Made by a program: the position numbers and the translations under genes
Source: Terramyces sp. JEL0728
Lineage: Eukaryota > Chytridiomycota > Chytridiomycetes > Rhizophydiales > Terramycetaceae
DNA length: 64,000 bases
Direction of reading: 5' to 3'
NCBI GenBank assembly: GCA_027603945.1
Contig: JADIIU010000048.1
Coordinates: 34,410-98,409 of the forward strand
Shown here: positions 373 to 64,000 of the stretch, one piece after another
Layout of the letters: every line of letters begins with the position of its first letter
Position numbering within the stretch: position 1 is the first letter of the stretch
Notes under the pieces: generated by a model
Databases searched by the model: none
What the model was told of the DNA's origin: nothing
Seen by the model: the letters and a program-made list of their open reading frames with translations, nothing else

Positions 373-1081
373 TTATTTATCTTTGATCAGTTTACCAAAT
401 CCAGTCGCTGAATCGCCAACAACAACTGCAACCACCACCAATACAGTAGATATCACCATAGCAATTGGAGACAGGAACCAGAAAAAGTATGGGATTGCAA
501 AATACAGAGATCGAATGCCAGCTGTATAAAATGCAGACCCATTGTTCAGCATTTCAGATATATGCGCAGTCGTCTCACCAAAATCATCTATATCCTGATC
601 AAAATCAATTTCGTCTTTAATATTTACTCCCATTTCAAATCCAGCGTGTAGCAAGTATCTAGCTGCTTGCAAGAAACAAAAGAACGCTGTAAAGTTGAAT
701 GTGATTACCAGGATTGCTTTGATTGGAGTGTATTTGCTGAAAACAATTGTATCATATACCGGATTGAATTTCTTGTTTCGTAGTTGCTCAATACTGAGTA
801 CCAGCACCACCGCATTGAATCCGATTGTTATTGAAGCTTATTATCTATTGATTACCTGTTGCTAGAAATATAGTGACGAATATCCAATTCCGTAGTGTCT
901 GGACAGTGAGCATATCCCCGCCGCTCTTTAATGATGTTTCCTTAACCCATGCTTTGCGGACATAGTACATCCATCCGCCAGTTGTCTTTTTAGGGCGAAA
1001 GTATACTTTGTAAAAGAAATATGCAGTGTAGAGCGCTAGCAAGCAACTAGCGATTGTGACGCACACTTGATCTCTATCCAT
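373..1081 (-). CDS. DUF599 family membrane protein, copy 1
   Basis: Exons 1081..856 and 836..373 give 229 aa. The intron is 19 nt (GTAATCAATAGATAATAAG). The N-terminal part has the signature of the DUF599 family of predicted membrane proteins: an aromatic-rich segment, a tryptophan near an RKAWV block, then D-LTVQTLRNW just before the intron. Four hydrophobic segments are visible. The family occurs in bacteria, plants and some fungi and has no assigned function. It forms a tandem pair with the next gene, which has the same order of segments. The stop codon overlaps an AATAAA-like element (GATAAATAAAC). Family assignment is good; function unknown. Confidence 0.8.
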
Positions 1082-1117
1082 CTCGTGTTTTTTTGTAGTG
1101 AAATATAAATTGGTTTA

Positions 1118-1953
1118 TTAAAGAACCACAACCAGATTACTAATACTTTGCGCTTCACTTAAACTTCGCCTAGATGCTGCTAGTGACTGCATTTCGATAT
1201 ATTCTTTCGGTGTTACAAGTCCTATATTGCCGTCTGATATCACCAACATGCAGACAACTACTATACTAGAAATCAATAGAGCTATGGGACTAAAGTACCA
1301 AAACACTATAGGCATGGAGAAGAATACACCTCTGATTCCCATTGTAAAGTAACTTGCACCAAAGTTCAACATTGAAGCTACGTGCTCAACTGTTTCTTTT
1401 GTATTTTCTCCGGGATGAAACCTCATTTCCTCGTCCATTTGTATTCCTAGTGAAAATGCAACGTGATTAAAGTATCTGATTGATTGGGTCAAACACTATC
1501 TTAGTCTGAATTACAAAGAACGAGAAAAAGTTGCAAGTCATCACGATTGCGGTTTTGTAGTAGACATTCGGACTGTACACTAGTTCAGCGATATACGGAT
1601 CCGTCACTTCTGAAGTTATATTTGACGATTGTATTATCATGTTGATTGCTGTGAACGCGATTGTCAGAACTGTAGTCGCTAGAAATGTTGAAACGACAAT
1701 CCAGTTTCTATTTAGTTTCGGGATACCTCAGTGACTGGACTGCGAGAATATCACTGCCGTTTTTCTTGCTTTTCGTTACTTTTACCCATGCCCGTCGAAC
1801 ATAATAATTCCACCCAACCAGTGTACTGGGGTTTCTGTATACTAATCCATACACTATCCAAAATGCGTAGACACTTAGGACAAATGAAGATATTCCGATA
1901 CATACGTTGGCCGTCGTATCATTTAGTAGCAAGTCTGTTGAATTTAAACTCAT
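1118..1953 (-). CDS. DUF599 family membrane protein, copy 2
   Basis: Exons 1953..1727, 1707..1515 and 1495..1118 give 265 aa. Both introns are 19 nt (GTATCCCGAAACTAAATAG and GTAATTCAGACTAAGATAG). It is a paralogue of the gene at 373..1081: the same W-YYVR-AWVK block, the same LAVQSLRNW motif across the first intron, and the same SFFC...RY segment across the second intron, where copy 1 is continuous. Copy 2 has a longer C-terminal tail. Head-to-tail order with 36 bp between the genes indicates a local duplication. Predicted multi-pass membrane protein, function unknown. Confidence 0.8.
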
Positions 1954-2290
1954 GCAAAGAATTTTTCAGGAATACATACCGTGTATCCCCCATACATGGC
2001 TCGAACAACCATCGATCAATACTATCCTTGTTATTGAAAACGTTCCGTTTAACTGGACGCATTGACCGGCCGTTTTGGCATATCTCCTAATCATTGGCTG
2101 GAGCCCGATAGTGCCGATAACAAACAATCAGCTAGTAGATACCAAGATAACAACAAACAGCGTGTTTGATAACTATCGGGATTACAAAGAACACAGCCAA
2201 CTTCTCGGCGGAGAAACCGGAATTTTAACCGCGAGACTAGCAAGTAGAATAAATATTGTTATTTATTAAATTTATACAATGGATATTTGG
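1954..2290. other. Interval without a supported gene
   Basis: Between the start of DUF599 copy 2 and the stop of the Ecl1-like gene. Short open frames occur on the plus strand but lack a good ATG context and match nothing I recognise. Most likely promoter of the DUF599 copy plus a short 3' flank. Confidence 0.4.
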
Positions 2291-3492: not shown

Positions 3493-4489
3493 TTAAAACT
3501 CTATGGTTCTTTGGTCTAATACAGTCGTAACATCATCAACATCTTTCAGCGACTCTAGGAATGGTATCAAGGAGAGCAACTCGGTATCTTGTCTGTCGTC
3601 ATACCAGCTAGTAATTGGAATAGCGTTTGCAGGGTGGAACAAATAGCAAGTATGGAGATTATCCACTATAATCACATCTTTCAGTGCTCTTCCTAGTAAT
3701 CCTAAATCCTACCATTAATCCCAAGTACTTTGACATAGATTCCTTTGTGATGGACGCAGTGCTCTCTGAATAGTCTATGCTTTACTACTTTGTGTGTGTC
3801 AATTTTATCAATCACCGAATTCGCATACTATTGTTAATGGAATATACCAATGATACTGATGCGGTAAAAACAGCAATTTCATAGTATTTAGATAAAGTAG
3901 AAAGAAACAAGTCGAGACCAGGTCGTAGCAAAACATTCAATTTGACTATTTTGTTTCCTAAATCCAATTGTAAGTGGATATCTGCATCCGCAACGGGTTT
4001 GAATGACGAATGGACTAGAGTTTCATCCAAGTCAAGCACCAGCAATTTCTTTCCTTTGTGTTTCTCGTCTTGCGGAGGTAAAATATTCGTCATTCCCTAC
4101 CATTAACTAAAAATACCGAGATAGACATGGCTGTTGCTGATCTGCTGACACTTGGCATTGTATTTGCTCTATCCAATACTTGATTTCCACCAAAACAAGA
4201 AGCAAAGCAAGAGAATATCGATTCCTTTTCCACAATGATTACTTGTTTTGGTTTTTTAAAATCCATATCAAATTCAGGTTCTTGCAAATCAGCTGAAGCT
4301 AGCAGTTACTCTTTGTAAACCTTTCTTCATGGAATGTCTGCTTTTAAAATCCTTATGAGTAAGCGTTTTTCTTTGTTTTACAGTCTCGACAATTGGGAGT
4401 AATTCCAGCTCGGCTGTTTCTGTAAAGTCATTGATTTTAATTTCCTTGTCTTGCAGTGTTAATGAATCCAAATTCAGTTCAGAATCCAT
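3493..4489 (-). CDS. FCP1-type phosphatase, Psr1/Nem1-like, paralogue A
   Basis: Exons 4489..4321, 4298..4117, 4096..3848, 3827..3729 and 3708..3493 give 304 aa. Introns are 22, 20, 20 and 20 nt, for example GTATATTCCATTAACAATAG. The HAD-type catalytic motif [10 protein letters not shown] follows KKLLVL; the FTAS motif, HRLFREHC block, IIVDN and a terminal NAIPI-SW-D-DTELL segment are those of the small CTD-phosphatase/Psr/Nem1 group (protein Ser/Thr phosphatase). The N-terminal third is unrelated to the catalytic domain but contains FSCFASCFGG, a cysteine pair suited to palmitoylation. First of four tandem paralogues. Yeast Psr1/Psr2 sit at the plasma membrane in the stress response; that role here is inferred. 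Confidence 0.88.
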
Positions 4490-4552
4490 TGAAAAGATTT
4501 TTCAATGTGGACCATTTATACTTTCTTGCCATTTTGGGATGGATATAAAATC

Positions 4553-4590: not shown

Positions 4591-4615
4591 TGGTAATATT
4601 ATTCCTTCATCTTCA

Positions 4616-4681: not shown

Positions 4682-5656
4682 TCAAGTACTACACATTTGA
4701 TTTAAAACTAGTGAAACATCTTCGATGGATTTCAAGTCTTCCAAAAACGGTAACAATTCATGCAGCTCTGTGTCGTTCGGATTATCAAACCATCCAGTGA
4801 TAGGTATGGCATTAGCCGGATGGAACATGTAGCAAATAGGAGAGTTGTCTACTATAATAACATCCTTCAGCTCTCTTCCCAGCAAAGACAAATCCTGGAA
4901 TTAATATCGTTTACTTTGACGTAATTGCCCTTATGGTGGATACAATGCTCTCTAAACAGACGGTGAGTAATGACTTTGTTGGTATCAATGAAATCTATAA
5001 CTGGATTCGCATACTGAAATTAATCGTAATTACCAGAGGGATTGAAGCTGTAAAAACAACAATTTCAAATACTTTAGAAACTTGCTGTAAAAACTCTCTA
5101 CAGCCTGGTCTTACAAGCACATTAACTTGATAATCAACATTATTCATTTCCAGGTGAATTACATGATCTGCTTTAGGAATGGGCTAAAATTAACTGCATT
5201 TACTTTGAATGAAGTATGAATAAGCGTTTCATCTAAATCCAATACCAGCAACTTTTTACCATAATGCTCTGGCTTCTGTTGTGGTAAAAACGGCTTCATT
5301 TCCGACGAGGGCGATAATGCACTTGGTCTTGATAATGATAGTTTGGCTAACGGAACTGCTGTGGCTCTAGTTACTATATTTGATGCTGCTAGACATGGAA
5401 ATATACATGAAAAAAAGTTTAATAGTGGTGGGAATGAATTGTCTTCCTTTGGACTTTCCATTGGTTTCGTTGCTGGAATATAACTTGAATGTCTGACACC
5501 GGCTTGCGATATTCGTTTCTTTGTTCGCTCCAGTGTAACTGAATCCATTTCGTCATTTGGCTCTGTGAATTGAGTTGCTATGTGGGTGTAGTCGTCTTCT
5601 TTGTCGATTTTTAGGTTTGACAGGTCTGCTACAGTCTTGTCCAATTCACTAGTCAT
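4682..5656 (-). CDS. FCP1-type phosphatase, Psr1/Nem1-like, paralogue B
   Basis: Exons 5656..5204, 5183..5034, 5013..4915 and 4894..4682 give 304 aa. All three introns are 20 nt (GTAAATGCAGTTAATTTTAG, GTAATTACGATTAATTTCAG, GTAAACGATATTAATTCCAG). The catalytic motif [22 protein letters not shown] and IIVDNS are present. The N-terminal half is serine- and threonine-rich and carries FFSCIFPCLAA, the equivalent of the cysteine motif in paralogue A. The first intron interrupts the FK-P junction right after the catalytic motif; the same site holds the non-canonical intron in C and D, and no intron in A. Confidence 0.9.
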
Positions 5657-5973: not shown

Positions 5974-7188
5974 CTATTCTTCTAATGTGGTATCCAATAC
6001 AATCTGAAAATTGTCTACATCTTTTAAATCTTCAAGGAACGGTATCAACCCAATCAACTCTGTATCATTCTTATCATCGTACCAACTGGTAATAGGAATA
6101 GCATTCGAAGGCTGAAACATGTAGCTAGACGGTAAATTGTCAATAATTGTACAATCTTTGATATCTCTGCCTAACACAGACAAATCCTATGTTAATTGAG
6201 GTTACTTTGACGTAGATGCCTTTATGGTTTACACAATGTTCTCTGTACAACCTATGCGTTATCACATTATGTTTGTCGAGTATATCCAAGACGCTATCAG
6301 CATACGTAGCTATTGACGCAGTGAAAATGATAATCTCGTAATACTGAGCAAGATGGGTAAGGAATTCGTCAACACCTGGGCGTTTCATTACGTAGATCGT
6401 TTGCATAGATTTGTTGAATTCAAAAGATGTTACAAAATCTGGTTCAAGGATAGGCAAAAGTTAATTCAAATGTACTTTAAACGAAGAGTGGACTAGCGTT
6501 TCATCTAAATCCAGCACAAGCACTTTTTTGCCTTGGTTCTGTGGATTTACTGGTGGGATTACTGATGCATGGTCAGTCTACGTTATATTCAGTGTACTTT
6601 TTCTGGCTTTGTTGATACTGGCTGTAATTCTATCGAAGGCACTTTATGCAGTGATTTTGGGAATAGACATGGGAATAGACATGAAAACCAGTCACTGCTT
6701 TTTTGTTGTGGTTTATACTTGTATTCCTTTGTGTCCATTGGGTCCTTTATGGCGGGTTGAATTTCAATGCTCTCCTTGTCCTCTTGGACACTGTTGCTTT
6801 CCTCAACATCTTTTTCTTTTCTATCAACTGTGTATTCATGAGTATTTTCCTGCACATCGTAATCCAAAGTATAAATGTCATCAAGAATATCTCTAGTTTC
6901 TACTTGTACCAATTCTACTGCTACTGTTTTCAATTTAATTGGAATTTCAGCTTCTGCTACCTCAGTTGGAGTTTGAGTTTCTTCAAGGGATATGGTGGTT
7001 AATTCTAATTGAACTATTTCCACTTGCTGGTCTTGAATTTGATATTCAGCTTCTGCTTTTTGAATTTCAGCTTTTACCACCTCAGTTGGAGTTTGAGTTT
7101 CTTCAAGGGATAGGGTGGCAATGTCTACTTGAACTGTGTCTATCTCCATTTCAGGTACAATTTCATTAGATATATCTCTTTGTACCAT
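5974..7188 (-). CDS. FCP1-type phosphatase, Psr1/Nem1-like, paralogue C
   Basis: Exons 7188..6598, 6577..6476, 6454..6206 and 6186..5974 give 384 aa. Introns are 20 nt (GTACACTGAATATAACGTAG), 21 nt ending TG, and 19 nt (GTAACCTCAATTAACATAG). The ATG at 7188 is used because the open frame extends 21 nt further only to a TTG. The N-terminal half is acidic and contains two copies of a 40-residue repeat (LSLEETQTPTEV...), exactly 120 nt apart, then WFSCLFPCLFP. The catalytic domain is complete ([10 protein letters not shown]). The intron seen in the other paralogues after the FTAS motif is absent here. Confidence 0.87.
6455..6475 (-). other. Non-canonical GT-TG intron in phosphatase C
   Basis: The 21-nt unit starts GTACATTTGAATTAAC and ends TTTTG. 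Only this excision keeps the frame from FK to PILEPDF, matching the FK-PIPKAD junction of paralogue B, whose intron at the same position ends TTTTAG. Canonical AG acceptors downstream shift the frame and hit a stop. Confidence 0.75.
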
Positions 7189-7376: not shown

Positions 7377-8605
7377 TTAATCTGAATTGTTGTCTAATAC
7401 AGTCTGCACATTGTCTACCAATTTCAAATCCTCCAAGAATGGAATCAAGTCTAGCAATTCAGTGTCGGATGGATCATCGAACCAACTTGTAATTGGTATA
7501 GCATTAGATGGATGGAACAGATAGCATGAAGGAGAATTATCAATAATTATTGTATCTTTGATTGGTCTTCCTAATAATGACAAATCCTACAATTAATTTC
7601 ACTTACTTTGACATAGTTGCCCTTGTGGTGGATACAGTGCTCTCTAAATAGTCTATGCTTTACTACTTTGTGTGTGTCAATAATATCAAGAACTGGATCA
7701 GCATACTAGCATTAATCAGAGTTACCATTGAAAGCGATGCTGTAAATACTACTACTTCATACTGGTTTCCTAATCTTTCCAAAAACTCGTCCAAGCCCGG
7801 CCTTTTCAGAACGTATACTTTGTGTATGGTGTTGTTGATCTCAACAGACACTATGAAATCTGCTTTGGGAACAGGCAAAGGTTAATAAAAAGTACCTTAA
7901 AGGAAGAATGAACTAGCGTTTCATCTAAATCTAATACCAGAATTTTCTTTCCTAAATCTTCGCCATCCATTGCAGGCAGAAGTGGTGGGGGCTCAGACTA
8001 TCATAAATTAAAAATTACCGAAGCAATTTGAGATTGTGGAACTGCCATTGTGGCCATAGCAATAGAAGGAGCTCTCTGCAACGGCTCACTCTTTGGTTTG
8101 GTGAAAATACAAGGAAATAGACAGGAAAAGAACGACGAGCAAGTTGAAGCTTGATGGACCGGCTCAGTTTCAATCTCTGCCGGAGCTTCTTTAGTAGAAC
8201 TCTTTGCAGGCTCAACCTTTGATGAATGGCCCACTAATTTAGGAATAAAATACCTTCCATTTCCATTCTCTTTTTTGATTCTTCAATTTTAGCTTTTACG
8301 GCTGAAGTTGAAGGTGCTTGGGTAACTTGGGTGATTATCGATGCAGGCTCTACTTTTTCTGCAGTTATTTTATCCTTGTCGCTCTCTTCTTTGTTTGTCT
8401 CTTCCTTATTTTCTACTTTCTTTTCAGTTTCAGCCGGTTGCTCTTCAGGGAGCGATACTGGCGCTTTTTCTTCTACTGTGTGCTCTCCAGCTTGAGCGCT
8501 ATTGTCATCAGCTATTTGCTGCATCTGCACTCCGCCAACAATGTCAGACTTTTTATCAGTAATATCTGTTAAAATTACATCCGTTTTTTCCGTTTGTACG
8601 TCCAT
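7377..8605 (-). CDS. FCP1-type phosphatase, Psr1/Nem1-like, paralogue D
   Basis: Exons 8605..8254, 8233..8019, 7997..7896, 7875..7726, 7705..7607 and 7586..7377 give 375 aa. Introns are 20, 21, 20 (ending TG), 20 and 20 nt. The N-terminal half is acidic and rich in glutamate and lysine, ending with [10 protein letters not shown], the array's shared cysteine motif. The catalytic domain has [22 protein letters not shown] and a C-terminal [10 protein letters not shown]. About 35 nt of the HRLFREHC exon are identical to paralogue A (3769-3803 versus 7648-7682), more than the surrounding sequence would predict. The ATG at 8605 is the first in frame. Confidence 0.88.
7876..7895 (-). other. Non-canonical GT-TG intron in phosphatase D
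   Basis: GTACTTTTTATTAACCTTTG, 20 nt, at the same position (after SSFK, before PVPKAD) as the TG-ending intron of paralogue C and the AG-ending intron of paralogue B. Splicing to the next AG sites breaks the reading frame. Confidence 0.75.
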
Positions 8606-9990: not shown

Positions 9991-10226
9991 TTACATATGC
10001 TTTTTCCCCTTTCTCCTTGACAACTTGGGAAACTGTACAGATTCTTCGATAGAATCGTCACTGCTCGAATCATCGCAGTACATATCATCTAGTGAGTTTT
10101 GCAGCGAAAGACAAAAGTCCTTGTAGACACATTTATCTGAGCAGTAAAGGCAATCGGTGGGTACCTGCTTGTTACAGATAATACACCTATCATTAGATTC
10201 GATTACCACGATAAAAAGTAATCCAT
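9991..10226 (-). CDS. Ecl1-family small zinc-binding protein, copy 3
   Basis: Exons 10226..10207 and 10186..9991 give 71 aa. The 20-nt intron GTAATCGAATCTAATGATAG lies inside the first cysteine motif; splicing produces MDYFLSWCIICNKQVPTDC, which matches copy 2. Reading straight through gives an unrelated N-terminus from an ATG at 10260, so the spliced form is preferred. The rest holds LYCSDKC, an acidic middle and the C-terminal block VQFPKLSRRK. The smallest of the three copies. Confidence 0.78.
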
Positions 10227-10596: not shown

Positions 10597-11123
10597 TCAA
10601 CTTGAACCAAAGTTCCTAGCCGCGATCTCTTTAAGCATCTTTAACGTCTGCTCTTCCTTCTTTTGTCGCTCCTTTATACGCTCTTCCATCTGCTCTGCCT
10701 TTTCTTTTTGTATTCTCATTCTCTTGGATTTCTGCTGAGCTTCTTTTGCTGCCTGTCGTAGTATTTCTTCATTGAAATCATCGTCTCCAAATATATCCGA
10801 ATCTTTCATTGCCGGATCTACCTCATTCTCTTGCTTGTGATACGCAGTAAGCATCTTTTTCTTTTCCAACAGAGCTTCTCTATTATCAGAATGGGTTACT
10901 TTCCAGTCTTTTTAGGCACTAGTTCTTCCAATACTACTTCTTGATATTTTCTGAATCGCTTTCGCCCCAGCTTTTCTTCATACCGATCTACTGCTTTCAT
11001 TTCCTGCTCTTCATCCCAGTCCAAGTTGCTTACTTTCGAAGCTAATAACTTTGCTTTCTCTTTTGCTCTCTTCCTTTCATTCATCTCTTCAATCGCATCC
11101 TTTGCTTTCTGGCTCATTGGCAT
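10597..11123 (-). CDS. Charged coiled-coil protein, unknown family
   Basis: Exons 11123..10900 and 10879..10597 give 168 aa; the intron is 20 nt (GTAACCCATTCTGATAATAG). The protein is strongly charged, mostly helical, with an acidic DSDIFGDDDF patch and a C-terminus ending TLKMLKEIAARNFG, a pattern seen in uncharacterised fungal nuclear coiled-coil proteins. A coding-like exon lies just upstream: 43 codons from ATG 11348 to 11217, followed by two intron-like units (near 11200-11216 and 11178-11198). I could not join it in frame, so the true start may be 11348. That start is 45 bp from the divergent DGAT2 gene. Confidence 0.6.
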
Positions 11124-48431: not shown

Positions 48432-49245
48432 ATGTCTTTTGGCGGGTAACTGGGTTAAAGATATTTACATCCATGAAGTGTGCAGCTTGTTGTATTCGCA
48501 TTTATCGCATCTCTGGCAACCTGATCGTTCATCTTGAATAAATAGCAAAGGTTAACCACATCCGCAGCTCCTCTAAAATATAGCAAATCACTTGCTTCGC
48601 TCGAAATGATAATATTCTGTCCTTTTGTTACTCGCATCAACGACAGCGCATTTGAAATGACATTTCTTTTGACAGAAACATCTAGATTAACGGAAAATAC
48701 CTTTGATAGCAGGGGCATAGGTTAACTCAAAGCACACTCCTCTGTTGATTGCCATATTAATCGAAGGGAGTTTCAGATAATACGGAAGACGCTCTGAACA
48801 ATCCAACGTAATAATATCGACTTCCATTTCTTGGCATGCTTGATTGAATTGTTTTTCATTGAATGGCATCACGCTAATCAAATTGTAGCTCTGAAATAGT
48901 GCGTTTGATTTTATAGAATAGTTGAAAGTAAGATTTGATAATGGAATATGCAAGCGAGTGTAAATCTTGAATAAATCGGCAGGAGTCTTTAGTTTCGTGT
49001 TTGTAATTTTATGCTGCGCTATTAAATTTAAATAATCATTGATTGGAATTGAGCACGGCTATACTCAACGGATAATTACCTAGATATTAGGATTTTTAAC
49101 CTAATGTAAGCAGGAGACTTGCCTTTTCCTTTGTCAGGTTCCTTGCGGTAACAGTCAATGCGATACCTTTATATCCCAATTCACTCATTAATTTCATTGT
49201 TTCCAGCGGTTTCTTGAAAGTATCATTTGGAACAAAGAGATCCAT
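48325..49245 (-). CDS. RPP1: RNase P/MRP protein subunit p30
   Basis: Exons 49245..49101, 49018..48701, 48681..48469 and 48449..48325 give 266 aa, close to human RPP30 (268). Introns are 82, 19 (GTATTTTCCGTTAATCTAG) and 19 nt (GTAAATATCTTTAACCCAG). Family landmarks: MDLFVPND start, LGYKGIALT, IYTRLHIPL, ERLPYYLKLPSINMAINRG, FELTYAPAIKD, NVISNALSLM, KGQNIIISSEA, LRGAADVVNL-like segment and a lysine-rich tail. The protein is part of nuclear RNase P and MRP, which process tRNA and rRNA precursors. Its start is 16 bp from the divergent PRP17 start. Confidence 0.9.
49019..49100 (-). other. Atypical 82-nt intron with abutting intron-like units
   Basis: The intron of RPP30 that restores the family alignment is 82 nt, four times the local norm. 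Its first 42 nt consist of two directly abutting 21-nt units, each beginning GT, holding a branch-like element and ending TAG (49100..49080 and 49079..49059). It looks like short introns stacked inside an intron. Confidence 0.55.
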
Positions 49246-52499: not shown

Positions 52500-55311
52500 T
52501 TAAGCGGAAGATATACTATTACGAGCTTTACGCTCGTATTCAGCCCATCTCATCAACGGCACTTTGTTTTGTTCAAATGGTGAAGAGTGCTCATCGGCAT
52601 GACCAGCTTTAGACTGTGTTTCTCCAGTAACTTTACGGGTTTCACCCCACGAGAAATCATCAAAGTTCCAGAAAGCGTACAACGGGAGAATAAATTGCCA
52701 GATTGGAAGGGCTAAGAGGTAGATCAGCATCCAGCCTATGTAGGATAAACGGCGGCCAGTAAGTAACACGATAAATGCCGGTAGAAAGATGACCAATACC
52801 ATGGCTGTAGTCATGATCGCATTCGTGATATTGTCAGTAATTGGGGATGCATGGGCAATTGACGAGAAAATCAAGTAATATGTAGAGAGCAAACCAGCTG
52901 GCATGACTGCAGTGGACAACAAGTCCATAAACACTAAAAACTAAAATTATACAAGAAAAACCTGCATAGAGAAGCAAAAAGTACCACACAAAGCATCAAC
53001 TAGTACAAGCTCCATCAAGTTGTGAATTGTAGAGTTAATCCATCTACGGCGTTGAGATAAAAGCGTTTTGAAATCGTCTGGTACCACAGTCTTGCAGAAC
53101 GCCTTTGGCACATAGATTGTTTTTCGCAATGGGAACTGCCTCAACATGATAGTTGTCAAGAACCGATCTTCGCCCAACAAAAGAAGGTTCTTGTCATGCA
53201 GTGTAAAGACTTCGTTAGTAGAATACTGGTCAATGATATCTGGGTTCCCAATGACTGGTATAGTCAGACCATCCTTGTTTGTACTCTTAATTCTCCACAT
53301 GCAGAAACAACCAGGTAGACAAGTAACACCGCCAAATAGAGATTCGAATGCTTTGCCCATGCCATGCGAAATGAAATATTCAAACACCTGGATCATCGTA
53401 ACCCACGATTGTTTCTTGTTTGCAATACGAGTTTCACCACACAAACCATTGATTAACGGATCGTTTTGTACAGCATTAATCAAATAGTGCAAGGACATGT
53501 TATCCACCATTGTATCCGCATCAACCATAAGAACAGTTTCATAGAAATCAGGCGTGACACCAGTGATGTGATGGATTTTTCTGAAAATATCGTAGTCCAG
53601 CGGCGTCATGCGATCATTCAAAGTAACACGCGAGAAAAAGTTCATGAGGATCAACTGCGAGTCTCTTTTTCCTCTGTTTCCGGGTTTTGCGTTTCCTTGT
53701 TCATCAGCGGTACCGCATTTAACGATCAGTACCATAGGAACAACGTGTCCATCTGCGTTGTAAGTCCCACAGTATACTTTTGCCATATTAAGCTGCTTTG
53801 GCCCAGTCGCAATGGCAACATATTCCTTTGGTTCAGGATTCTTTCCGTAGACTTTTGAATGGTGCATCATTTTGATCAAGATATCAGGGGTGGTGTGTTC
53901 GTTCCCACTACCTTTAACTAAACCATCGGCAATCACAAACAAGAGTTTTTTGCGGTCGTCATAATCTGTTTTTGCTAGAGAATCAAGTGTATTGCGAAGG
54001 GATTCTTTTCCTTCACTATAACAAGTAACCAAACAAGCAGTGTACAGCTCTCCAACATTAATCTTTTCTGCAGTTGAATCCGAATCGATAGTAAAAGAAG
54101 ATCCTTGTCGCAGTACTTGCACTTCGCCGCCCAGCAGAGGTTGGGATTGAGTCGGTGATTTTGAAGAGAATTTGCTGTTCATATTAGCTGCATTAGGATT
54201 CCTCGCCAATCTGGCAGACACAAACCAGTCAAAAAGCAGAGCCATGATGAATTTGGAGAACAAAATAGTCAAAATTACAGCCGCAATAGTATAGACAAAC
54301 AGTTTAGACAAGATGCAACTCATTGGCAAGTTGTTTAAAGTTCCAACAGTGTACTTTTGAATCAGACAATCAGCAACAACTCCAGTAGTAATTTTAGATT
54401 GGGCCATTAAGTGTGTCATATCATTCAAAGTCTGCGCTTTTCTAATTAAAGAATCAAGAGGATCACTAGCAATCGGATCTGGATATTGGCTAAAGTATGG
54501 TTGGAAATTCAGCACATTGGTTTGGTATACAACCAAGTTGCGTTGGATAACATCTGACCAATCATACGCGGGGTTAGGACTGACCGTAACCATTTTATTT
54601 TGAAATCCAGCAATTTGCGTGTACAATGTCAAGTTTTGATTTTGAACCAAATCATTCAGATCAAGACAGTTACTGTTTTGTTCACACAGCGATTGGACCT
54701 TGGCGAATGAAAATCCAGTAACGGCGTTATCAGAGCAGCTTGAAATTGGGGCTGCCTTGAATACAGCAGAAACATCTATTCCTGAAAATGACGATGAAGT
54801 TTGTTCAAACAACGTGTTATACGGAGGGAACATTGTAGTTGATAAATACATGCTGCCAAAGATAACTACACCGCCTACATGAAATATATTTACCATACGC
54901 ATTAATAGGAACCGTGTTCTGCAGTAAAGATTCGGGACAAAGCAAGTTTGGCATGAACAACAGTACAAATACTGTTGCCGCCATCATTGCGAATGCAATA
55001 AAACACAAAGCAATCTTTTCTCTCCAAGCTTGTTGTGATTGTGGTAGAATCCCGAATAGTTTAAGCAAAAAAGGCGGAAAGCAACATGTAATACCCCAAG
55101 AAAATACAACCCAGGCACTAGGTTTCCCTCTAGGTTTTTCAAAGATCACTTTATTCCTGGCGATGGTTGCTTTTCTACCCATTGTTTTTGATGTTGGCTT
55201 GCGAGCAATTGTTTTTCTGTGATCTGCAGCATTTTGTGTTGTTCTGCGAGATGGCGCGAATAGTGTTGGTCTCCTCAGAGCGGAATAAGCTGATTCTTCG
55301 TCACCGTTCAT
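52500..55311 (-). CDS. Chitin synthase, division II (class IV-like), gene 1
   Basis: Exons 55311..54894, 54874..52962 and 52940..52500 give 923 aa; introns are 19 nt (GTAAATATATTTCATGTAG) and 21 nt. Basic N-terminus, two membrane helices, a luminal region, then the GT2 catalytic core: VTCYSEGKESLRNTLDSL, VDADT, the EDRFLTT acceptor-site motif and QRRRWINST processivity motif, followed by C-terminal helices and FDDFSWGETRKV, which is typical of class IV enzymes. It polymerises UDP-GlcNAc into chitin at the plasma membrane. No myosin domain. Paralogous to the second copy at the right edge. Confidence 0.95.
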
Positions 55312-55688: not shown

Positions 55689-56366
55689 TTATTGAAAGAG
55701 ATATTCGAAATCTTTACTTGTGCTCAAGTTACTCCCCACAATCTCTACAACTTTTTTGAATATTTCTTCCTTTGAGGTGTTACAATCAATATTAATCCAA
55801 CCCCTATCCCTACATCAACAATTCTTACATTCGCTTGAAGCCCTCATAGACTCTTTTCTGAAACTCTAGCGACTCATATCGTTCATTTCCATAATCACCT
55901 CTTTCTATTGCCAGTTCAGGATCCAAATCAAAAAACAAAACAACATCAGGTTTGAGTAGCCCCTTATCACTATTACAGCACCAATCGAAATCCAGTCCTT
56001 TTGCACTTGAATAGCATATTCCAGAGTAGCAATATCGATCTACTAGCAGTACATATCCATCTAATAGCAACTCTTTCATCTCTTGTACTTGTTCCCATCG
56101 ATTTGCAGAAAATAATAAATGGATAGCGTGATCATTACTGCTACTTCCATTCAAGTAATCATTTATTATTTTGCCTGTATGCGATTCGCGATCTTGTTAA
56201 TTAAACATACTTGGAAATTTGAAAATCTTGCATCTTATATTGCTGCTATCCAGATGATTGCGTAATTGCTGTATCTGCGTTGATTTGCCGCTGCGGTCAC
56301 TAGAATTAATTTTATTTACACTCCTTCGATCACAATCATCGTTCCTCGTTTTTGCATTTTTGTCAT
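55689..56366 (-). CDS. CDC8: Thymidylate kinase (dTMP kinase)
   Basis: Exons 56366..56320, 56299..56211, 56192..55829 and 55809..55689 give 206 aa; introns are GTAAATAAAATTAATTCTAG (20 nt), GTATGTTTAATTAACAAG (18 nt) and GTAAGAATTGTTGATGTAG (19 nt). The P-loop EGVDRSGKSTQ spans the first intron; FPNRESHTGKIINDYL, the DRYCYSGICYSSAKGL motif with DRY, and FFDLDPELAIERG are as in yeast Cdc8. It phosphorylates dTMP to dTDP. The 18-nt intron is the shortest well-supported one here: the PNR motif is exactly restored only by this excision. Confidence 0.93.
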
Positions 56367-56817: not shown

Positions 56818-57545
56818 CTAATGCTTTTTATTAATGATTTTGTCAACCGAATTCTCAATAAGAGTCATTAGCGGCCCACTGCCAGCATTCACCATCCCCC
56901 GAACAATATTCTCTACATACTTGCCCATTGGGTCAACTTCAAGGTTCACCAAATGTCCAACACCCTTACCTGGCATAATAACCCTCTGTTGTGTATACGC
57001 AATCAACATAACACTAAACAACCGCTTGCTCCAGTCAACATCGATAACAGTCAACGATGTACCATCCAAACAAACATATCCTTTAGGAACAATATAGGAA
57101 AGGAATTCAATATCCTGCTCTTTCAACTGAAAATGAAAAATCAATGAATTTGGTGGATCCTTGGTAATTGAATAAATAGAAACAGTAGTATCAACATGTC
57201 CCTGCGTCAAATAATGCTTACTTGAACAAAATGGCCGCCAAATCTCGTACTTGCACTCATTGCACGTTCAAGGTTAACATTATCCCCCACTTTGAATTCT
57301 CCAAGGTTGGTTTTGCGCAGAGTTTCTGGAGATATGCCGACTTTGAAGACAGTTCTTTGTGCGTTGAATTCGGTTACTGTTAGACATACGCCGTTTATTG
57401 AGATAGAGTCACCCAGTGAACAGTCAGAGAGAACTACTTCTGCACTGTCGATGGTAAGTGTGTATCCGTTGCCTCCTGATTCTGTAGAGTCGAGTTCTTC
57501 AACGCTGATTACTCTTCCAATTGTTTCTACTATTCCCGTAAACAT
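56818..57545 (-). CDS. RIB5: Riboflavin synthase
   Basis: Exons 57545..57222 and 57201..56818 give 235 aa, the usual length; the 20-nt intron is GTAAGCATTATTTGACGCAG. Two tandem lumazine-binding barrels: MFTGIVETIG...SLGDSISINGVCLTV...NLERAM...RFGGHFVQGHVD, then LDGTSLTV...NLEVDP in the second half. Catalyses the last step of riboflavin synthesis, dismutation of two 6,7-dimethyl-8-ribityllumazine. The intron splits HFVQ-GHVD at the domain boundary. Confidence 0.95.
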
Positions 57546-57601: not shown

Positions 57602-60600
57602 TTAAATTCTGATTGGATGCTTCTTGACTTGCCATCTACCATCAGCAAAGGATTTAGCCCACTTGCGAACAGGTCCAAGGATCACAACTCCTTCCCAAAT
57701 CATCAGAGCTGCCAAGTTGAAAACGACGATACAGAACACAGTCCATCTGAAGCCTACTGGGATGACATTATGTCCTGAGGTATTGAAATAAACTGATGGT
57801 GCATTCCACCATACAGTGTATCCTAAAGAAGAAAGCACATCTGCAGTTCCACAATTGATATGGAAAATGCAACTGATTGGGTTAGGGCTCGACAGCAAAA
57901 GAAGGGAAAGCAGCAGGAACCCTAGCGAATAAATAGCGATAAAAATCCTGTTTTTAACGAACCCGTTTCGGTACTTGTCACCAAAACTGAATACACACGC
58001 AGAATGGATGATCTGGAATGTCGTCAATATTCCTACTAGTTCTCCTTCATAGTTATCCGCCAGTTCCCACCACTTACGTAAATCAACGTATGTAGAATCG
58101 AATTGGTTGCAGATGTAAAAGGATTGGCCGAATAATGACGATAATAATATGCACAAGAAAATAAAATTGATGACGATTTGACCAAGGACTGACAAGACTG
58201 TTTCAAAACCTAATCTTATTCAATAATTACCTAATAGCCTTGCTGTTGGTCTTGACGCAATTAAACGCTTAGCTGGCTCTGCCATTGTCAGTGCCCAACT
58301 TAATGGAACGGTACACCCGTCAATAAAGATCCACATTGCTTGAGACATTTGAACCTTGAAAAAGTACTGAACCATACCAGAAAAAGTAAGAATCTCACCA
58401 TACATGATCAATAGCCTATATCAGAAATAATTACTTGTATGATGCTAGAGACACGTCCAGTGAGCATCTTGCTTCTCTCAATAGCTCCACACAAGATCTG
58501 AGCGAAACATCCATTGAAGAAAAGTGGGACACTACAGAAGTGCCTGTTCCACATAGTGCAATACCTGCATGTGAAGCCTTCAGCGCGCCAGCATCATTCC
58601 CACCATCACCACACATGGCAGTAATATGGTGATGCATATGTAAACGAACACATTGCACTTTATCCAATGGACTCATTCTTGCAAAGATTCTGATATCGCC
58701 CAAGAACTGTGGGATCCAATGATGCGAAAGCAGCTTGGAGAATGCTTTTCCAGCGACCACTAGTTCTACTTTTCGCCCTCCTTGTCTGCCTTCATAAACA
58801 GCTTTTTCAACTTTGGATTGAGGGTAGGCTTCATTAGTGTCCACATCATGCCAGGTAATAATTTCATCATCATCACATTCTGCCATCAATATCAGTGGTG
58901 CTTGCCCGAATGCATCAATGTTGATCAAGCCAGACTGCTTACCAATAAATACCGCAGTGTTTGCATGATCTCCAGTAATCATAATATTTCTGCAGCCTCC
59001 TTCACGCAGTTGCGACAGTGCTTCAGAAGTATCTGGTTTCAATTCATTTCTAAACAAGATTAAACCAATGATTTCTGCCCCAGCTTCCATTTCTTCTCTG
59101 TTTGCCTTTTGAATAACTTCAGACGTAAACTTTGAATCAAGTTTTCGTCCTGCAATTGCCAAGACATAGTAACCTTGGAGTGCTTGCTCCTTTGCTGCTT
59201 CGATGAAGCCTCCTGGAACGGATTTCGGATCAACAAGTGCCAAGATTTTTTCAAAGGACCCTTTGAGGAAAATATACTTTTCTCCAGTTGTTGAATCCTG
59301 GGCTACACTAGACATATATGCGTGCGCATGCACAAATTCAAATCTCTTGAGTACTTTGAATTCTTTGCCATCTTTTGCAATCACGGTAGAGTTGGAGTTT
59401 GGATCAAGGCTTGCCTGGGTGTATTTAAACATTTCAACGTCAACAAAATTACCAACGAATCTGTTTTGCACCTTTGAGATCGAGTGGCAAGTCTGCATAG
59501 CAAATTGTAGTGCATAGGAGAATGAGGCAAACATGTTTTCAATTTTACCAAGCGTTTTTGTAGTGTTGTTGACCTGTAGCGCACCGCAGAAATCTAACCC
59601 TTCTTTGGTTAAAGTACCGGTCTTGTCGAAACAAAATACTTTAACTTTGCCAGCCAGGGTAATGCGATTCAAATCAACACACATAATACCCTTTCTGCGC
59701 AGGCGGTCGGCAGCAACAGACTGGTTGATGACTAGAACGGCAGGCAACAGAGGGGATAAAACTTGGGAAATGCCAAACATACCATAGAACCAAGTGTCGA
59801 TGCTTGCGGCTTGTAAAATCCCGATTGAAGCAAAAAGCATAACAACTCCCCAGCAAATCAAAATTGGAACGACGATTTTCAAATGTTCAGTGAAAACAAA
59901 CACAAACGGAACTGGATAAAGAATATCTCTAACCAATTTGCCTTTTTCAGTAGAACCACCAGTGGCTAATACGACAGCTTTGACGCACTCCCCTTGCTTA
60001 TCCTTTTGGGTCTCCAGGACAATGGTTCCAGCAAATAAGCAATTTCTTTTTGCATTCAACTCTTTGGAGAACACATTGTTGTCGTCCTTGAGGGAAAATT
60101 TAGTAACTGGCAGCGCTTCACCAGTCAACGAAGATTCATCAACTACTACATCACCAGATAAAATTGCACAATCAATAGATAGAGGCAGACCGGTCAGTCT
60201 GATTTCCATAATATCGCCAACGACCAATTCTTTACTTGGAATTTCAGTCCATCTGTTATTTCTAAAGACTTTGGAATAGCCAGAAAAAGTAGCCATTTCC
60301 AAAACCCTTTGTTGGGCAGCGTTTGAAACAATCACTTTCATAATACCAGAGCCGACAATGATGGCAGTAAGAACCATTCCCATGTAGTAGTAGGCATAAA
60401 AGTACCAAATAAACAACATCATCAGCTGGTATAAATAAAAGATGCCGGTGAATTCTTTCCATAACCCTTGTCCCAATGTGTCAACGGTGAACAAGATTTG
60501 ATTTGGCCCAGAGAGTTCAATTCTATTTTCTGCTTCTTCTTCAGAGATCCCGCCGGACAAGCCAATGATTTCCTTGTTTGTAGACCCAAGATTGAATCGA

Positions 60601-61736
60601 TAGGGTTCAAACATATTTCTCTTTGTGCTAAAGACATATCGAACACATTCGAATTCAACGTACATTCTTCCGCTCCTGGTGATTTGCAATGGCTTCAAGT
60701 CTTTTGACACAGAGATTTTGTTTTTTGAAAAGTAGGATTCAATTTTTTGTGCCAGCATTACTATTTGACCCATTTCATCGTTCTTTACAGCTTTCTGGCG
60801 TCTCTTTTCAACTAGAATATAGGTGGAATTTGCAATATCGGTTGGAGTCAAGAACCAGGTCTTTAGAAATCCTTTTTTGAATTGAAGCCCCAAGAACCAG
60901 GCAGTGGTGACATGCCAGAAGAATACAAACACTTTGGAAAGGTTGTCGTGGTCAACGAAAATAAGTCTTTGATTGCTGTTTGACCAAATTGCAAATACTT
61001 CATAGTAGTCGCAAACTAATGTAATCAACACAATCATCCATCCCAGACTGGTGACGAATATGGAATGTTTGACCAAGCTGCCCAAGAAGCTCTCTCTGTA
61101 TCCAAAGAAATGTATGTTTGTAGTTGGTTCGGAAGAATTTAGAGTTGGAGAGGATAGCGGTTGTGTCTCTTCCTTGTCCATCCCTCTCGTCCTTCTTTCA
61201 ATCCTGCCTTTGTATAGCGAGTAAGTAACCAAAATAGCACACTCCAGGATCATAAAGAAGTAGAAAAACACAAATTCTGGACTGACCCATGAAAATAGTG
61301 CTGGTGCAGGCCCGCTGCAATATTGGACGTATGCTTCCGAGGTAAGCGAATTGCTTAGTTGTGCTTGACATTCATCGACAAGCGGTTTGTTGGTATCGTG
61401 TGGTAATACTTGCAATGATACATTGAAATTAGCTTTGCACGGGAAAAATTGTTTATCAACTGGGTCTCCGGCGCAAGAACAACTACTATTAAATAAAATC
61501 TACATTGATTGTGTTCCTGAACATGCGAAAGCCATTGAAGCGCCAGAATGGCAAATGCCATCTCCGCAATAATACATGCCCAAAGGACAAGGATCTGGTT
61601 TCAAGAATGACGGGCAGTTTGCTATTGAAGAAACGCAAACTGGGGGACAATCCATTTGTCTATTGATTTTGGGACATGCCTGCCCGTTGAGATCAAACTG
61701 ATTCACTGCTATTAGATATCTGCACCTTTGAGCCAT
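57602..61736 (-). CDS. P5-type ATPase with cysteine-rich N-terminus
   Basis: Exons 61736..61504, 61482..58437, 58417..58231 and 58209..57602 give 1357 aa; introns are 21 (or 18), 19 and 21 nt. P-type motifs: TGEA (about 531), FCFDKTGTLT (phosphorylated Asp about 697) and the P5-specific GDGGNDAGALKASHAGIAL hinge. The fourth-helix site reads SPLLPAVL rather than the PPELP of P5A or PPALP of P5B (polyamine) pumps, so the cargo is uncertain. About 150 N-terminal residues before the first helix hold some 16 cysteines (CPPVC, CPLGMYYCGDGICH), an uncommon ectodomain-like extension. Likely in ER or endolysosomal membrane. Confidence 0.88.
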
Positions 61737-62060
61737 GATTTGCTACTAACACTCAGAAACAACAGCGAATAAATTTTCATGTTTGCTTTTTGTAGAGGTG
61801 GAGGATATTATATTTTTTTTGAAACAATGCCAGGAACGATTTTAGTGGGTCAACGTCACCCTAGTTGGGTTCTGAAGCTCTAGACCCAAAAACATATCTG
61901 GAATGAGCACTTTTATCTCAATCTCCCATCCGCTCTTTATCATTGCGGTATTTGGCAGTTTGGCCAAACAATAGGCTGAGCTTATCAAATTAAGACGCTA
62001 GTATTTGACACTGGTAAATAATGGAATGTTTACTGAGTAAACATTGATTGAATGAGCTGG

Positions 62061-62300
62061 TCACAGCTTTCTGCCCGCTTTTAATATTAATTCCAAACTC
62101 CGATAAGCTTTCAAGGTTGGTAAATGTGCTTCAAGTACCGCTTGGTGTTCCTTAAACATTCGCTTGCATTTCCTTATTTTCGTTTCTATCTGGTACCTCT
62201 TTGGATTTCTTGTTGGCCAAAATCCCAAAGGCTCGTTATGTGGCTGATTGGCGTCTTCAAACTGCGATTGTTTTAATTTCCTAAAGTTTATGGCTACCAA
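62061..62300 (-). CDS. Candidate basic protein, 5' end unresolved
   Basis: A 79-codon frame on the minus strand without ATG that reads as a basic helical protein (FWPTRNPKRYQIETKIRKCKR). A 17-nt intron-like unit (GTAGCCATAAACTTTAG) could join it to an ATG near 62354, but that exon would be antisense to the first exon of chitin synthase 2. Either a real gene overlapping the promoter of the synthase or a chance frame. Confidence 0.3.
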   Translation of the reverse strand: MVAINFRKLKQSQFEDANQPHNEPLGFWPTRNPKRYQIETKIRKCKRMFKEHQAVLEAHLPTLKAYRSLELILKAGRKL

Positions 62301-64000
62301 ACGTCCAGATATATTTTCTCCTCCAGATACACTAGAAAGGAAAGCGAATTCATTAGAAAGGGGAAAGGGATCCCTGTTTAGAAAAAGTAATATTTTGTCT
62401 TACATAGAAACATTAGGGAAAACCTTGAACCGCAAGAGCACTGCTGCTAGCCAGCACAAAAAGATGTTTGAAAAGCCTCCTGAGAGGCCTTCAACCTGGG
62501 TATTATTTTCCTGGATTATTACCTGTTGCTGCCCTTCACCAATTTTGGCTGGGTTTGGCATCCTCAAAAATTCCCAACAAGCTTGGAGAGAAAAGATTGC
62601 CTTGTGCTTTATCGCCTTTGTAATGATGGCCTTTACAATCTTTTTCCTCATCTTCTTTTCCAATGTTGTATGTCCCAATCCTGACAACTCTATTCGTAAG
62701 TCATATTTTAACTTAGCATTACATTCCTTTGGAGGGGTGGTTATCTTTGGAAAGCTTTATAATGCTCAGTCGATGAATCCACCTTTCAACTCTCTCTTTG
62801 AGCAGTTGGACAGCACTTTTGCAGGCTATGATGTTTCGGCTGTGTTCCAGAGACCTTCTATCTCATCCTGCGATAAAGATGGGGTTTCAAAATATGCCTT
62901 TGCGCAATTGCCGTCGCCTTGCGAGCCAGATGATTGCATCAGTTTGAACAACCTCGTTACTCAGCAAGGATTACGTCTGTACGATTCGTTGCACGGAACT
63001 AACAATCAGACTATCAAATACAATCCGCAGCCATCGTTTCAATGGGATGATATCATTAACAGAAATTTGGTTGTAGTGGACAGTACCATTTTGGATTTTA
63101 ACACCTACTTGACAGCGTATCCTGTTCCCTTGCTCAATGACCCTGTGGACACATTTATTCGCAAAGCACAAACAATGAACGATGCCACGCACTTGCTGGC
63201 AAACTCAAAAACAATCACAAGCGATTTGAAACAATGCATGACTCAAAGATTCTATGTCGGTGTATTAGCAACACTTCCTATGCAATGTATATTGACAAGA
63301 TTATTCTCATGGGGAATTTCAGCGTTGGTTTTAACAATCATGTTCAGCAAATTTGCAATGGCATTGATCTTTACCTGGTTTGATTCGAGAAAATTATCCA
63401 AAGATCCAACTCCAGATATGATCATCAATAGATACGAAAACATAAGAGCAGCAAAACCGCTGTTGTATGAAGAAACTGGTTACATGAATGCAAGTGTCAA
63501 AAATGGTACTCAAAGAGGTTTGGCATATTCAAGGAAACAGCCGGGCACTGTCGGTCCTGCTTTGCACCCTGCCGATTTATTTACCGTTATGCTAGTTACT
63601 TGCTATTCAGAAAGCGAACAGTCTTTACGAGGAACATTAGACTCTCTTGCCGCCACGGATTACGACGATTCGAAAAAGTTGTTTTTTGTAATCGCTGATG
63701 GTCTGGTACAAGGCAGCGGTAACCCTACTACTACCCCAAACATGCTGATTTCCATGATGGATCACGATCCTAGGTTTGGCATGCAGCCGCAAGCTCAGTC
63801 CTATGTAGCCGTAGCAACTGGTTCAAAGCAACACAACATGGCACAGGTCTATTGCGGCACATACAATTACCAAGGAAGAGCCGTTCCAATGATTTTGGTA
63901 GTCAAATGCGGCACTCCTGATGAAGCTGGTGGACCAAAGCCTGGTAACAGAGGAAAAAGAGACTCGCAGTTGATCCTCATGAACTTTTTCTCGCGTGTTA
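62290..64000 (+). CDS. Chitin synthase, division II (class IV-like), gene 2, partial
   Basis: Exons 62290..62695 and 62717 to the window edge, about 563 aa visible; the 21-nt intron starts GTAAGTCATATT and sits at the same site as the first intron of chitin synthase 1. The N-terminal membrane region (WVLFSWIITCCCPSP, QAWREKIALCFIAFV) and luminal segment (FGGVVIFGKLY...VSAVFQ) align with gene 1. The catalytic domain has begun (VTCYSESEQSLRGTLDSL, KPGNRGKRDSQLILMNFFSR) when the sequence ends; catalytic Asp and QRRRW motifs lie outside. Gene 2 is transcribed in the opposite direction from gene 1. Confidence 0.93.
   Translation, partial: MATKRPDIFSPPDTLERKANSLERGKGSLFRKSNILSYIETLGKTLNRKSTAASQHKKMFEKPPERPSTWVLFSWIITCCCPSPILAGFGILKNSQQAWREKIALCFIAFVMMAFTIFFLIFFSNVVCPNPDNSIRKSYFNLALHSFGGVVIFGKLYNAQSMNPPFNSLFEQLDSTFAGYDVSAVFQRPSISSCDKDGVSKYAFAQLPSPCEPDDCISLNNLVTQQGLRLYDSLHGTNNQTIKYNPQPSFQWDDIINRNLVVVDSTILDFNTYLTAYPVPLLNDPVDTFIRKAQTMNDATHLLANSKTITSDLKQCMTQRFYVGVLATLPMQCILTRLFSWGISALVLTIMFSKFAMALIFTWFDSRKLSKDPTPDMIINRYENIRAAKPLLYEETGYMNASVKNGTQRGLAYSRKQPGTVGPALHPADLFTVMLVTCYSESEQSLRGTLDSLAATDYDDSKKLFFVIADGLVQGSGNPTTTPNMLISMMDHDPRFGMQPQAQSYVAVATGSKQHNMAQVYCGTYNYQGRAVPMILVVKCGTPDEAGGPKPGNRGKRDSQLILMNFFSRV

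Follow-up and report, generated by a model that had tools for sequence, protein, structure and literature searches.

Introns of 18 to 23 nucleotides as the probable default size in the nuclear genome of the chytrid Terramyces sp. JEL0728

Tiny spliceosomal introns are known from heterotrich ciliates, chlorarachniophyte nucleomorphs, and mikrocytids. The introns of Stentor coeruleus show GU-AG boundaries, a branch adenosine at a fixed position, a tail of ∼5 nucleotides (nt), and U2-type machinery (PMC9505925). Nucleomorph introns measure 18 to 21 nt (PMC10245619; PMC5014332), and those of Mikrocytos mackini, compared there with transcriptome data, are uniform at 16 to 17 nt (PMC10245619). A branch site anchored near the AG and the lack of a polypyrimidine tract are described for Yarrowia lipolytica, Trichomonas vaginalis, and Giardia lamblia (PMC2483917). 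In a survey of fungal genomes, the mean intron of 63 bp in Cryptococcus is cited as relatively short (PMC8476143). Each of the tiny or tract-free groups resembles in part the introns described here, from a 64,000-nt stretch of the Terramyces sp. JEL0728 assembly (contig JADIIU010000048.1, positions 34,410 to 98,409; referred to here as the window).

The assembly comprises 15,016,339 bases in 231 contigs. The chitin synthase open reading frame at 52947-54902 (minus strand) has 100% identity, over 97% of the query, with a Terramyces sp. JEL0728 protein encoded on a contig of 98,409 nt, at whose end the window also stops. NCBI taxonomy places Terramyces in the fungi (Chytridiomycota, Rhizophydiales, Terramycetaceae), in agreement with the original prediction, which was made from the window alone. 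The tiny-intron systems named in that prediction, heterotrichs and nucleomorphs, are correct; its list lacked the mikrocytids with their 16- to 17-nt introns (PMC10245619). Among the literature matches listed, in a search whose scope excluded subscription papers and preprints, none was recognised as describing introns of this kind in a free-living fungus. The evidence presented below indicates that the Terramyces units are very probably genuine U2-type spliceosomal introns and that introns in this nuclear genome are by default 18 to 23 nt long.

Size class and frame restoration

Gene finding covered 264 kb, consisting of the 64-kb window and 20 ten-kb stretches from 20 contigs (20001-30000 of each). 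A gene finder with learned signals, from which models below a coding-score cut and overlapping lower-scoring models were dropped, called 317 introns in 152 genes. With 294 calls at 18 to 23 nt (1, 82, 136, 55, 17, and 3 at the successive lengths), the set shows the narrow range of an ultra-short class, near 15 to 21 nt. The window accounts for 59 introns in 35 genes, with 55 at 19 to 22 nt (14, 28, 12, and 1), and the stretches outside it show 239 of 258 calls at 18 to 23 nt. This finder is biased against stop-free 21-nt introns. Four window calls exceed 23 nt (28, 134, 174, and 225 nt); in the authors' reading, the first holds an in-frame 22-nt alternative, and the last two each seem to join what are two separate genes. 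Among complete gene models, 98 of 129 contain an intron; introns average 2.19 per gene and, relative to coding sequence, 1.67 per kb. Phases 0, 1, and 2 are represented by 124, 80, and 73 of the 294 short introns, and 17 have no assigned phase. Models with <300 nt of coding sequence were dropped from these statistics and from the flat-prior counts below. By extrapolation from the sampled density of ∼1.1 short introns per kb, the assembly would contain ∼16,700 of them, an upper estimate, with some contigs being near-duplicates. The ∼70 window introns originally predicted are of the right order, 61 being listed in Table 1, and the three quoted examples are all present on the minus strand, two of them (10187-10206 and 56193-56210) outside the 35 finder genes.

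The size class also stands out in three tests that do not depend on homology. GT..AG pairs that connect two open frames, each 60 codons or longer, number 76 at 19 nt and 80 at 20 nt, compared to 1 to 55 at every other length from 8 to 120 nt. A second gene finder with a flat length prior, using a coding model and bare dinucleotides, gave 16, 22, 7, and 3 GT-AG introns at 19 to 22 nt (48 in total) when lengths of 8 to 300 nt were allowed, compared to 0 to 3 per length and 2 to 4 in total for each of five decoy pairs. With the limit later raised to 1000 nt, GT-AG gave 44 calls at 19 to 22 nt and the controls gave 3 (TG-AG), 2 (GA-AG), 4 (GC-AG), 7 (AT-AC), and 1 (CG-AG), leaving GT-AG, the boundary of U2-type introns, as the sole pair tried with a clear peak. 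Flat-prior long calls of 139 nt, 213 nt, and other lengths carry 20-nt units at both ends and were divided once the learned length prior was applied. In raw DNA, the motif GTA...YTRAY-N(1-2)-YAG, learned from the gene-finder introns and searched with no preferred spacing imposed, occurs 71, 89, 31, and 13 times at total lengths of 19, 20, 21, and 22 nt. Twenty dinucleotide shuffles gave 3.6, 2.9, 3.8, and 3.4 at the same lengths, and other spacings from 12 to 60 nt in the real DNA gave 1 to 11 each. An artefact of the assembly or of the gene finder, conceivable with a self-written program that learned its own motif, is vanishingly unlikely in view of the spacing counts, which involve no gene models, the independent family matches, and a protein of identical length in the sister genus Boothiomyces, which was compared at the protein level.

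This last case is a phospholipase C-like protein of 426 residues, which aligns with the 426 residues of Boothiomyces P0121 with 379 identities and no gap across four junctions. In seven window genes, 16 of 17 splice junctions align without a gap once the introns are removed, including that of the 18-nt intron quoted in the original prediction. The spliced CDC40/Prp17 protein aligns over residues 8-530 with human PRP17 (5mqf_E) and is gap-free at both junctions; seven residues before the first, the alignment has a gap of four residues. Riboflavin synthase is continuous with 1kzl_A at its one junction, and the SCP phosphatase at 4682-5656 is gap-free with human SCP1 (1t9z_A) at three. Two chitin synthases show four gap-free junctions with the Boothiomyces proteins P0002 and P0004. 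The thymidylate kinase introns measure 20, 18, and 19 nt, and the alignment with 2yof_A shows no gap at the junctions of the first two. An intronless paralogue (12519-13652) runs uninterrupted where two neighbouring genes carry introns of 21 and 20 nt.

Outside the window, the chaperonin (CCT) genes of the whole genome were surveyed through the gaps between successive exon matches, a count that leaves out introns lying within one exon match. Of 19 such gaps, 14 measure 19, 20, or 22 nt. The five exceptions were read by eye against the family pattern and profile coordinates, without alignment, after which 20 introns result: 18 measure 19 to 24 nt, and the other two are 67 and 114 nt long. The same profile-gap table gives a gap of 34 nt for SF1 and of 19 nt for U2AF65. 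The claim that tiny introns are genome-wide is borne out by these 18 of 20 chaperonin introns and by the 20 stretches from 20 contigs. "Nearly all" likewise holds for the catalogue, and "uniform" proved slightly too strong, a small class being longer than 40 nt.

Three pairs of near-identical regions on the same or different contigs (L010/L011, L002/L003, and L044/L045) probably represent haplotypes or recent duplications that the assembly did not merge. Their exons differ by 60 substitutions and two indels (18 and 3 bases) in 6,878 bases, across which no one-base indel was found. The introns show three one-base indels in 278 aligned bases, unannotated DNA shows five indels in 2,063 bases, three of them one base long, and one 259-nt call contains a 10-base indel. 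Among six proteins compared, the metagenome proteins P0003, P0005, P0013, and P0027 continue past the residues FSMQ at one common place in the manner of an intron read-through, P0034 has the sequence expected after splicing, and the sixth is without the FSMQ motif. A 19-nt intron can be inferred for P0003 by back-translation, that is, by reasoning alone.

A further possibility is that the introns are real and that many are often retained, their tiny size reflecting a regulatory or noisy state instead of efficient splicing. Nucleomorph introns of >20 nt splice less well (PMC5014332), and mikrocytid introns of 16 nt splice twice as often as those of 17 nt, 63% versus 37% (PMC10245619). In Terramyces, however, a retained intron of 19, 20, or 22 nt would shift the frame and thereby disrupt conserved proteins, among them CDC40, the chaperonins, and Prp8, which makes this explanation rather unlikely.

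Splice signals and spliceosome components

The short introns begin with GTA, with ∼90% A at position +3 and G at position +5 in only 20%; the commonest donors are GTAATT, GTAAAT, and GTATTT. Most carry a YTRAY motif near the end, which matches the U2 small nuclear RNA (snRNA). The original prediction saw nothing else in common beyond the GTA and the branch motif, yet the spacing is fixed as well: the branch adenosine lies at nt 14 or 15 in 260 of 294 short introns, and the 3' end follows 5 or 6 nt later in 264 of 294. In the 19-nt class, the adenosine is nt 14 in 73 of 82 introns. The 20-nt class divides into 14+6 (71 of 136) and 15+5 (60 of 136), and 15+6 prevails in the 21-nt class (34 of 55). 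At the DNA level, most short introns can thus be described as a two-ruler unit, with a GTA donor, a YTRAY branch adenosine at nt 14 to 15, and an AG 5 to 6 nt further on. The stretch from branch to acceptor reads Y-N(1-2)-Y-AG in most introns and therefore leaves no room for a downstream polypyrimidine tract. The intron interior contains 41% T, compared to 28% in coding sequence.

A branch motif close to the AG is a feature of minor-class (U12-type) introns, and AT-AC gave the highest count of the five control pairs. Its 7 calls nevertheless stand against 44 for GT-AG, and the commonest donors are not RTATCC, the U12-type donor consensus. The branch sites are YTAAY or similar, and the longer U12-type context is not seen in the position tables. 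On the evidence of the intron sequences, a U12-type origin is exceedingly improbable.

The U2 snRNA was found with 140 bits and has the canonical branch-recognition box GUGUAGUA. Prp8, SF1, and U2AF65 are encoded. Prp8 was read in its N-terminal part, which is interrupted by introns of 20 and 19 nt. SF1 shows the helix-hairpin and KH domains and a zinc-knuckle exon skipped by the gene finder. U2AF65 (L032, 1454-2854, plus strand), whose gene itself has four introns of 19 to 20 nt, is comprised of an RS-like start, RRM1-RRM2, and a C-terminal UHM-like part; a tryptophan-bearing stretch in the model is presumably a ligand motif. RRM1-RRM2 align well with human U2AF65, although the introns have no downstream polypyrimidine tract. 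Of the components whose inspection had been proposed, U2, U2AF65, and Prp8 were thus located; U1 was not. The assignment to U2-type spliceosomal introns made in the original prediction is supported at the DNA level by the GT-AG boundaries, the YTRAY motif, the restored frames, the one-base indels seen in introns and not in exons, and the presence of SF1, U2AF65, Prp8, and U2.

Recognition would proceed with the intron as a single unit (intron definition). U1 and then U6 would pair with a weak donor mostly without G at +5, and SF1 followed by U2 snRNA (canonical GUAGUA) would read the branch motif. The AG would be set by its distance from the branch site, with which it comes along because the gap is fixed. 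In the absence of room for a downstream tract, U2AF65 would be left with three modes of action: binding in the U-rich sequence from donor to branch, binding that overlaps the branch site, or an effect exerted chiefly by contacts with proteins. The excised lariat would have a loop of 14 to 15 nt and a tail of 5 to 6 nt. The conflict with usual spliceosome spacing raised in the original prediction has precedents in the branch-to-AG proximity of Yarrowia, Trichomonas, and Giardia (PMC2483917) and in the even shorter distance from donor to branch in Stentor (PMC9505925).

Longer introns and a possible second tier

Stentor and the mikrocytids have no longer introns at all; Terramyces has introns of 45, 215, 123, 67, and 114 nt. 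RPS3 contains a 45-nt intron after the residues KKRK and is continuous with human uS3 once it is removed. RPL7 contains introns of 215, 123, and 21 nt, the latter two inside a gap-free alignment to fungal uL30; the 215-nt intron interrupts codon 4, ahead of the best-alignment start at residue 10. The 67- and 114-nt introns, found in two chaperonin genes, equal the profile gaps. Such introns account for 2 of the 20 in the chaperonins and, in the sample, for no fewer than 3 of the 317 calls. All five end in YTAAY plus 5 nt, the branch-to-acceptor spacing of the short introns. The donor is GTAAG in five of five, compared to 26 of 294 short introns (Fisher P = 9e-6), or in four of four without the 215-nt intron, which lies outside the best alignment (P = 9e-5).

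In the flat-prior finder, decoy pairs give as many long calls as GT-AG. The resulting view that no longer class exists was rejected after the five chaperonin exceptions were read in the DNA. Two long calls proved wrong: the intron called at 45 nt in RPL18 (L014) measures 23 nt, and the 248 nt called as an intron in SF1 (L038) include the zinc-knuckle exon and, after it, an intron of 20 nt. A 64-nt call in L026 (plus strand) consists of three head-to-tail GT..AG units of 22, 21, and 21 nt and is perhaps a tandemly duplicated tiny intron.

The 123-nt RPL7 intron (L015, 3082-3204, plus strand) contains a match to a C/D small nucleolar RNA (snoRNA) like snR39/SNORD2. The match scores 28.7 bits, below the gathering score of 40, with an E value of 0.005 in 601 bases; it has C and D boxes, and CAUCUUUCGGG adjoins the D box. 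In yeast, snR39 also sits in an RPL7 intron. At least one long intron thus seems to be held long by a snR39-like snoRNA. The five longer introns raise the hypotheses that length may be retained where cargo is present and, as they suggest, that a longer donor-branch distance accompanies a stronger donor.

The same 3' end in the longer introns of RPS3 and RPL7, one with a snoRNA-like insert, bears on the alternative that the short units are skipped without RNA splicing, through translational bypassing or through DNA elimination like that of ciliate internal eliminated sequences. DNA alone is blind to RNA, and the units are short and uniform, as this alternative would have it. It is very unlikely in view of the longer introns, the GT-AG and YTRAY signals at fixed spacing, and the presence of SF1, U2AF65, Prp8, and U2; to our knowledge, no fungus eliminates such DNA.

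Under the preferred reading of U2-type splicing, one spliceosome would also handle the longer minority, with the 3' spacing kept and a strong GTAAG donor. Deletion pressure likely shrank the introns to the geometric floor of the spliceosome, save where cargo or another need holds length. A two-tier system served by one spliceosome is proposed only tentatively: a floor-size default (∼16,700 introns) and a rare GTAAG tier kept long, with U2AF65 repurposed. Here, the two fixed spacings would make the donor G at +5 and the polypyrimidine tract dispensable, the strong GTAAG donor would free the rare tier from the donor-branch spacing, and U2AF65 would read uridines upstream of the branch point. The length of the rare tier would be maintained by cargo, snoRNAs for example, or by functions in strongly expressed genes.

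Several points weigh against these readings. The introns are known here from DNA alone, and the pairing of U1 and U6 with the donor is a postulate. Neither snRNA was found in genome searches run with no positive-control genome, and the two best U6-like hits (L010 and L011) are coding sequence; U1 and U6 may be missing from the assembly, interrupted (U6 by introns), or divergent. In the exon-wise search, U2AF65 matches its family with a score under the curated cut-off. At the third thymidylate kinase junction, the alignment with the closest structure, 2yof_A, has an indel of two residues. The raw-motif pattern came from the gene finder's own introns, leaving the spacing alone as independent evidence. 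Calls of >23 nt number 23 of 317, of which few were checked, with some wrong and some real. The count of ∼16,700 assumes a representative sample and ignores duplicated contigs. The five longer introns of the GTAAG comparison were selected post hoc; adding three long calls with a branch-like motif at the end, one of them a mis-call, gives 5 of 8 (P = 4e-4).

Window genes, significance, and known systems

Table 1. Introns of the window. "Finder" denotes a call of the learned-signal gene finder.
Length (nt)	Position	Strand	Gene	Basis
19	837..855	-		finder
20	3709..3728	-	NIF/SCP phosphatase, 3493-4489	finder; spliced protein matches Pfam NIF 1-159/160
20	3828..3847	-	NIF/SCP, 3493-4489 (first quoted example)	finder; Pfam NIF
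20	4097..4116	-	NIF/SCP, 3493-4489	finder
20	4895..4914	-	NIF/SCP, 4682-5656	gap-free vs human SCP1 1t9z_A
20	5014..5033	-	NIF/SCP, 4682-5656	gap-free vs 1t9z_A
20	5184..5203	-	NIF/SCP, 4682-5656	gap-free vs 1t9z_A
19	6187..6205	-	NIF-like gene piece	low-scoring gene
20	6578..6597	-		finder
20	7587..7606	-	NIF-like	finder
20	7706..7725	-	NIF-like	finder
21	7998..8018	-	NIF-like	finder
20	8234..8253	-	NIF-like	finder
20	10187..10206	-	(second quoted example)	joins SW/CIICNKQ by eye; outside called genes
20	10880..10899	-		finder
21	14141..14161	-	CBM1/expansin-like	paralogue 12519-13652 intronless here
20	14985..15004	-	CBM1/expansin-like (that of 14141..14161)	finder
20	15833..15852	-	paralogous CBM1/expansin-like	paralogue without intron
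20	17944..17963	-	actin-related	finder; actin family match
19	18134..18152	-	actin-related	finder
19	18764..18782	-	actin-related	finder
19	18857..18875	-	actin-related	finder
20	20962..20981	+	7TM-like (name by eye)	finder; identical intron in neighbour
20	22195..22214	+	7TM-like	finder; letter-identical to 20962-20981
20	23097..23116	+		finder
20	23717..23736	-		finder
19	24377..24395	-		finder
20	25030..25049	+	rhodanese	finder; Pfam rhodanese 5-101/102
19	25283..25301	+	rhodanese	finder; Pfam rhodanese
20	26153..26172	-		finder
21	28247..28267	-		finder
19	28413..28431	-		finder
20	28831..28850	-		finder
21	35354..35374	+	phospholipase C-like, 35282-36641	gap-free vs Boothiomyces P0121
19	35538..35556	+	phospholipase C-like	gap-free vs P0121
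19	35797..35815	+	phospholipase C-like	gap-free vs P0121
20	36134..36153	+	phospholipase C-like	gap-free vs P0121
20	37193..37212	+		finder
21	37303..37323	+		finder
20	37430..37449	+		finder
20	37581..37600	+		finder
19	38559..38577	+		low-scoring gene
21	41091..41111	-		finder
20	42594..42613	-		finder
20	44172..44191	-		finder
21	44333..44353	-		finder
19	48450..48468	-	RNase P p30	finder; family match 96-213/214
19	48682..48700	-	RNase P p30	finder; family match
19	49718..49736	+	CDC40/Prp17	no junction gap vs human PRP17 5mqf_E
22	50453..50474	+	CDC40/Prp17	restores FISTSDD
21	52941..52961	-	chitin synthase 1	gap-free vs Boothiomyces P0002
19	54875..54893	-	chitin synthase 1	gap-free vs P0002
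19	55810..55828	-	thymidylate kinase	low-scoring gene; two-residue indel vs 2yof_A
18	56193..56210	-	thymidylate kinase (third quoted example)	homology; restores KFPNRE
20	56300..56319	-	thymidylate kinase	homology; restores EGVDRSGKSTQ
20	57202..57221	-	riboflavin synthase	junction gap-free vs 1kzl_A
21	58210..58230	-	P-type ATPase (presumed)	finder; flat-prior run gave 33 nt, same frame
19	58416..58434	-	P-type ATPase (presumed)	finder
21	61483..61503	-	P-type ATPase (presumed)	finder
21	62387..62407	+	chitin synthase 2	gap-free vs Boothiomyces P0004
21	62696..62716	+	chitin synthase 2	gap-free vs P0004

The window shows a tandem array of NIF/SCP-type phosphatase genes at 3493-8605 (minus strand), some perhaps broken. 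Three tandem genes at 12519-16787 (minus strand) contain CBM1-like and chitin-binding-like parts and an expansin-like end, as judged from a scan of one and from the others by eye. The letter-identical 20-nt intron in the neighbouring 7TM-like genes can be taken as a sign of recent duplication. The minus-strand gene with introns from 58210 to 61503 is taken here to be a P-type ATPase.

The deposited chitin synthase HDV01_005548 (P0001; window 52500-55311, minus strand), the one gene checked in this respect, drops coding residues at both introns, and errors at introns may affect further deposited models of this genome as well. Introns of <30 bp were left out of a survey of minor introns across eukaryotes (PMC10639083). 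Together with the faulty P0001 model, this cut-off indicates that annotation practice may hide such introns.

If the two-tier reading is true, Terramyces would hold, within the literature consulted, the largest known set of introns of <23 nt and would be the first free-living fungus with such a set. Near-minimal introns in a fungal nucleus with SF1 and U2AF65 would separate intron size from U2AF loss. The minimal donor-branch-acceptor distance, so far accessible in relic nuclei, parasites, or giant ciliates, would become testable in a relative of genetic models. The strong donors of the longer introns point to a trade-off, open to testing, in which splice-site strength is balanced against spacing.

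Terramyces is cultured on its own. The known systems differ from it in several respects. The nucleomorphs harbor >800 introns in ∼300 genes of a relic nucleus (PMC5014332; PMC10245619), compared to an ordinary 15-Mb fungal assembly. Mikrocytos mackini, an intracellular parasite, has 224 introns and a reduced spliceosome (PMC10245619), in contrast to Terramyces with SF1 and U2AF65. Yarrowia, Trichomonas, and Giardia are discussed among intron-poor species with a strong branch consensus (PMC2483917); Terramyces shows ∼2.2 introns per gene, a looser branch motif, and a short donor-branch spacing too. In Stentor, all 8,806 annotated introns measure 15 to 16 nt, are found in 18% of genes, and form a loop of 10 to 11 nt (PMC9505925), whereas the Terramyces introns measure 18 to 23 nt, with a 14- to 15-nt loop, occur in 98 of 129 complete gene models, and are accompanied by a longer minority. 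As the Stentor branch adenosine lies at nt 10 to 11 with the same 5-nt tail (PMC9505925), the Terramyces geometry is less extreme than one already described.

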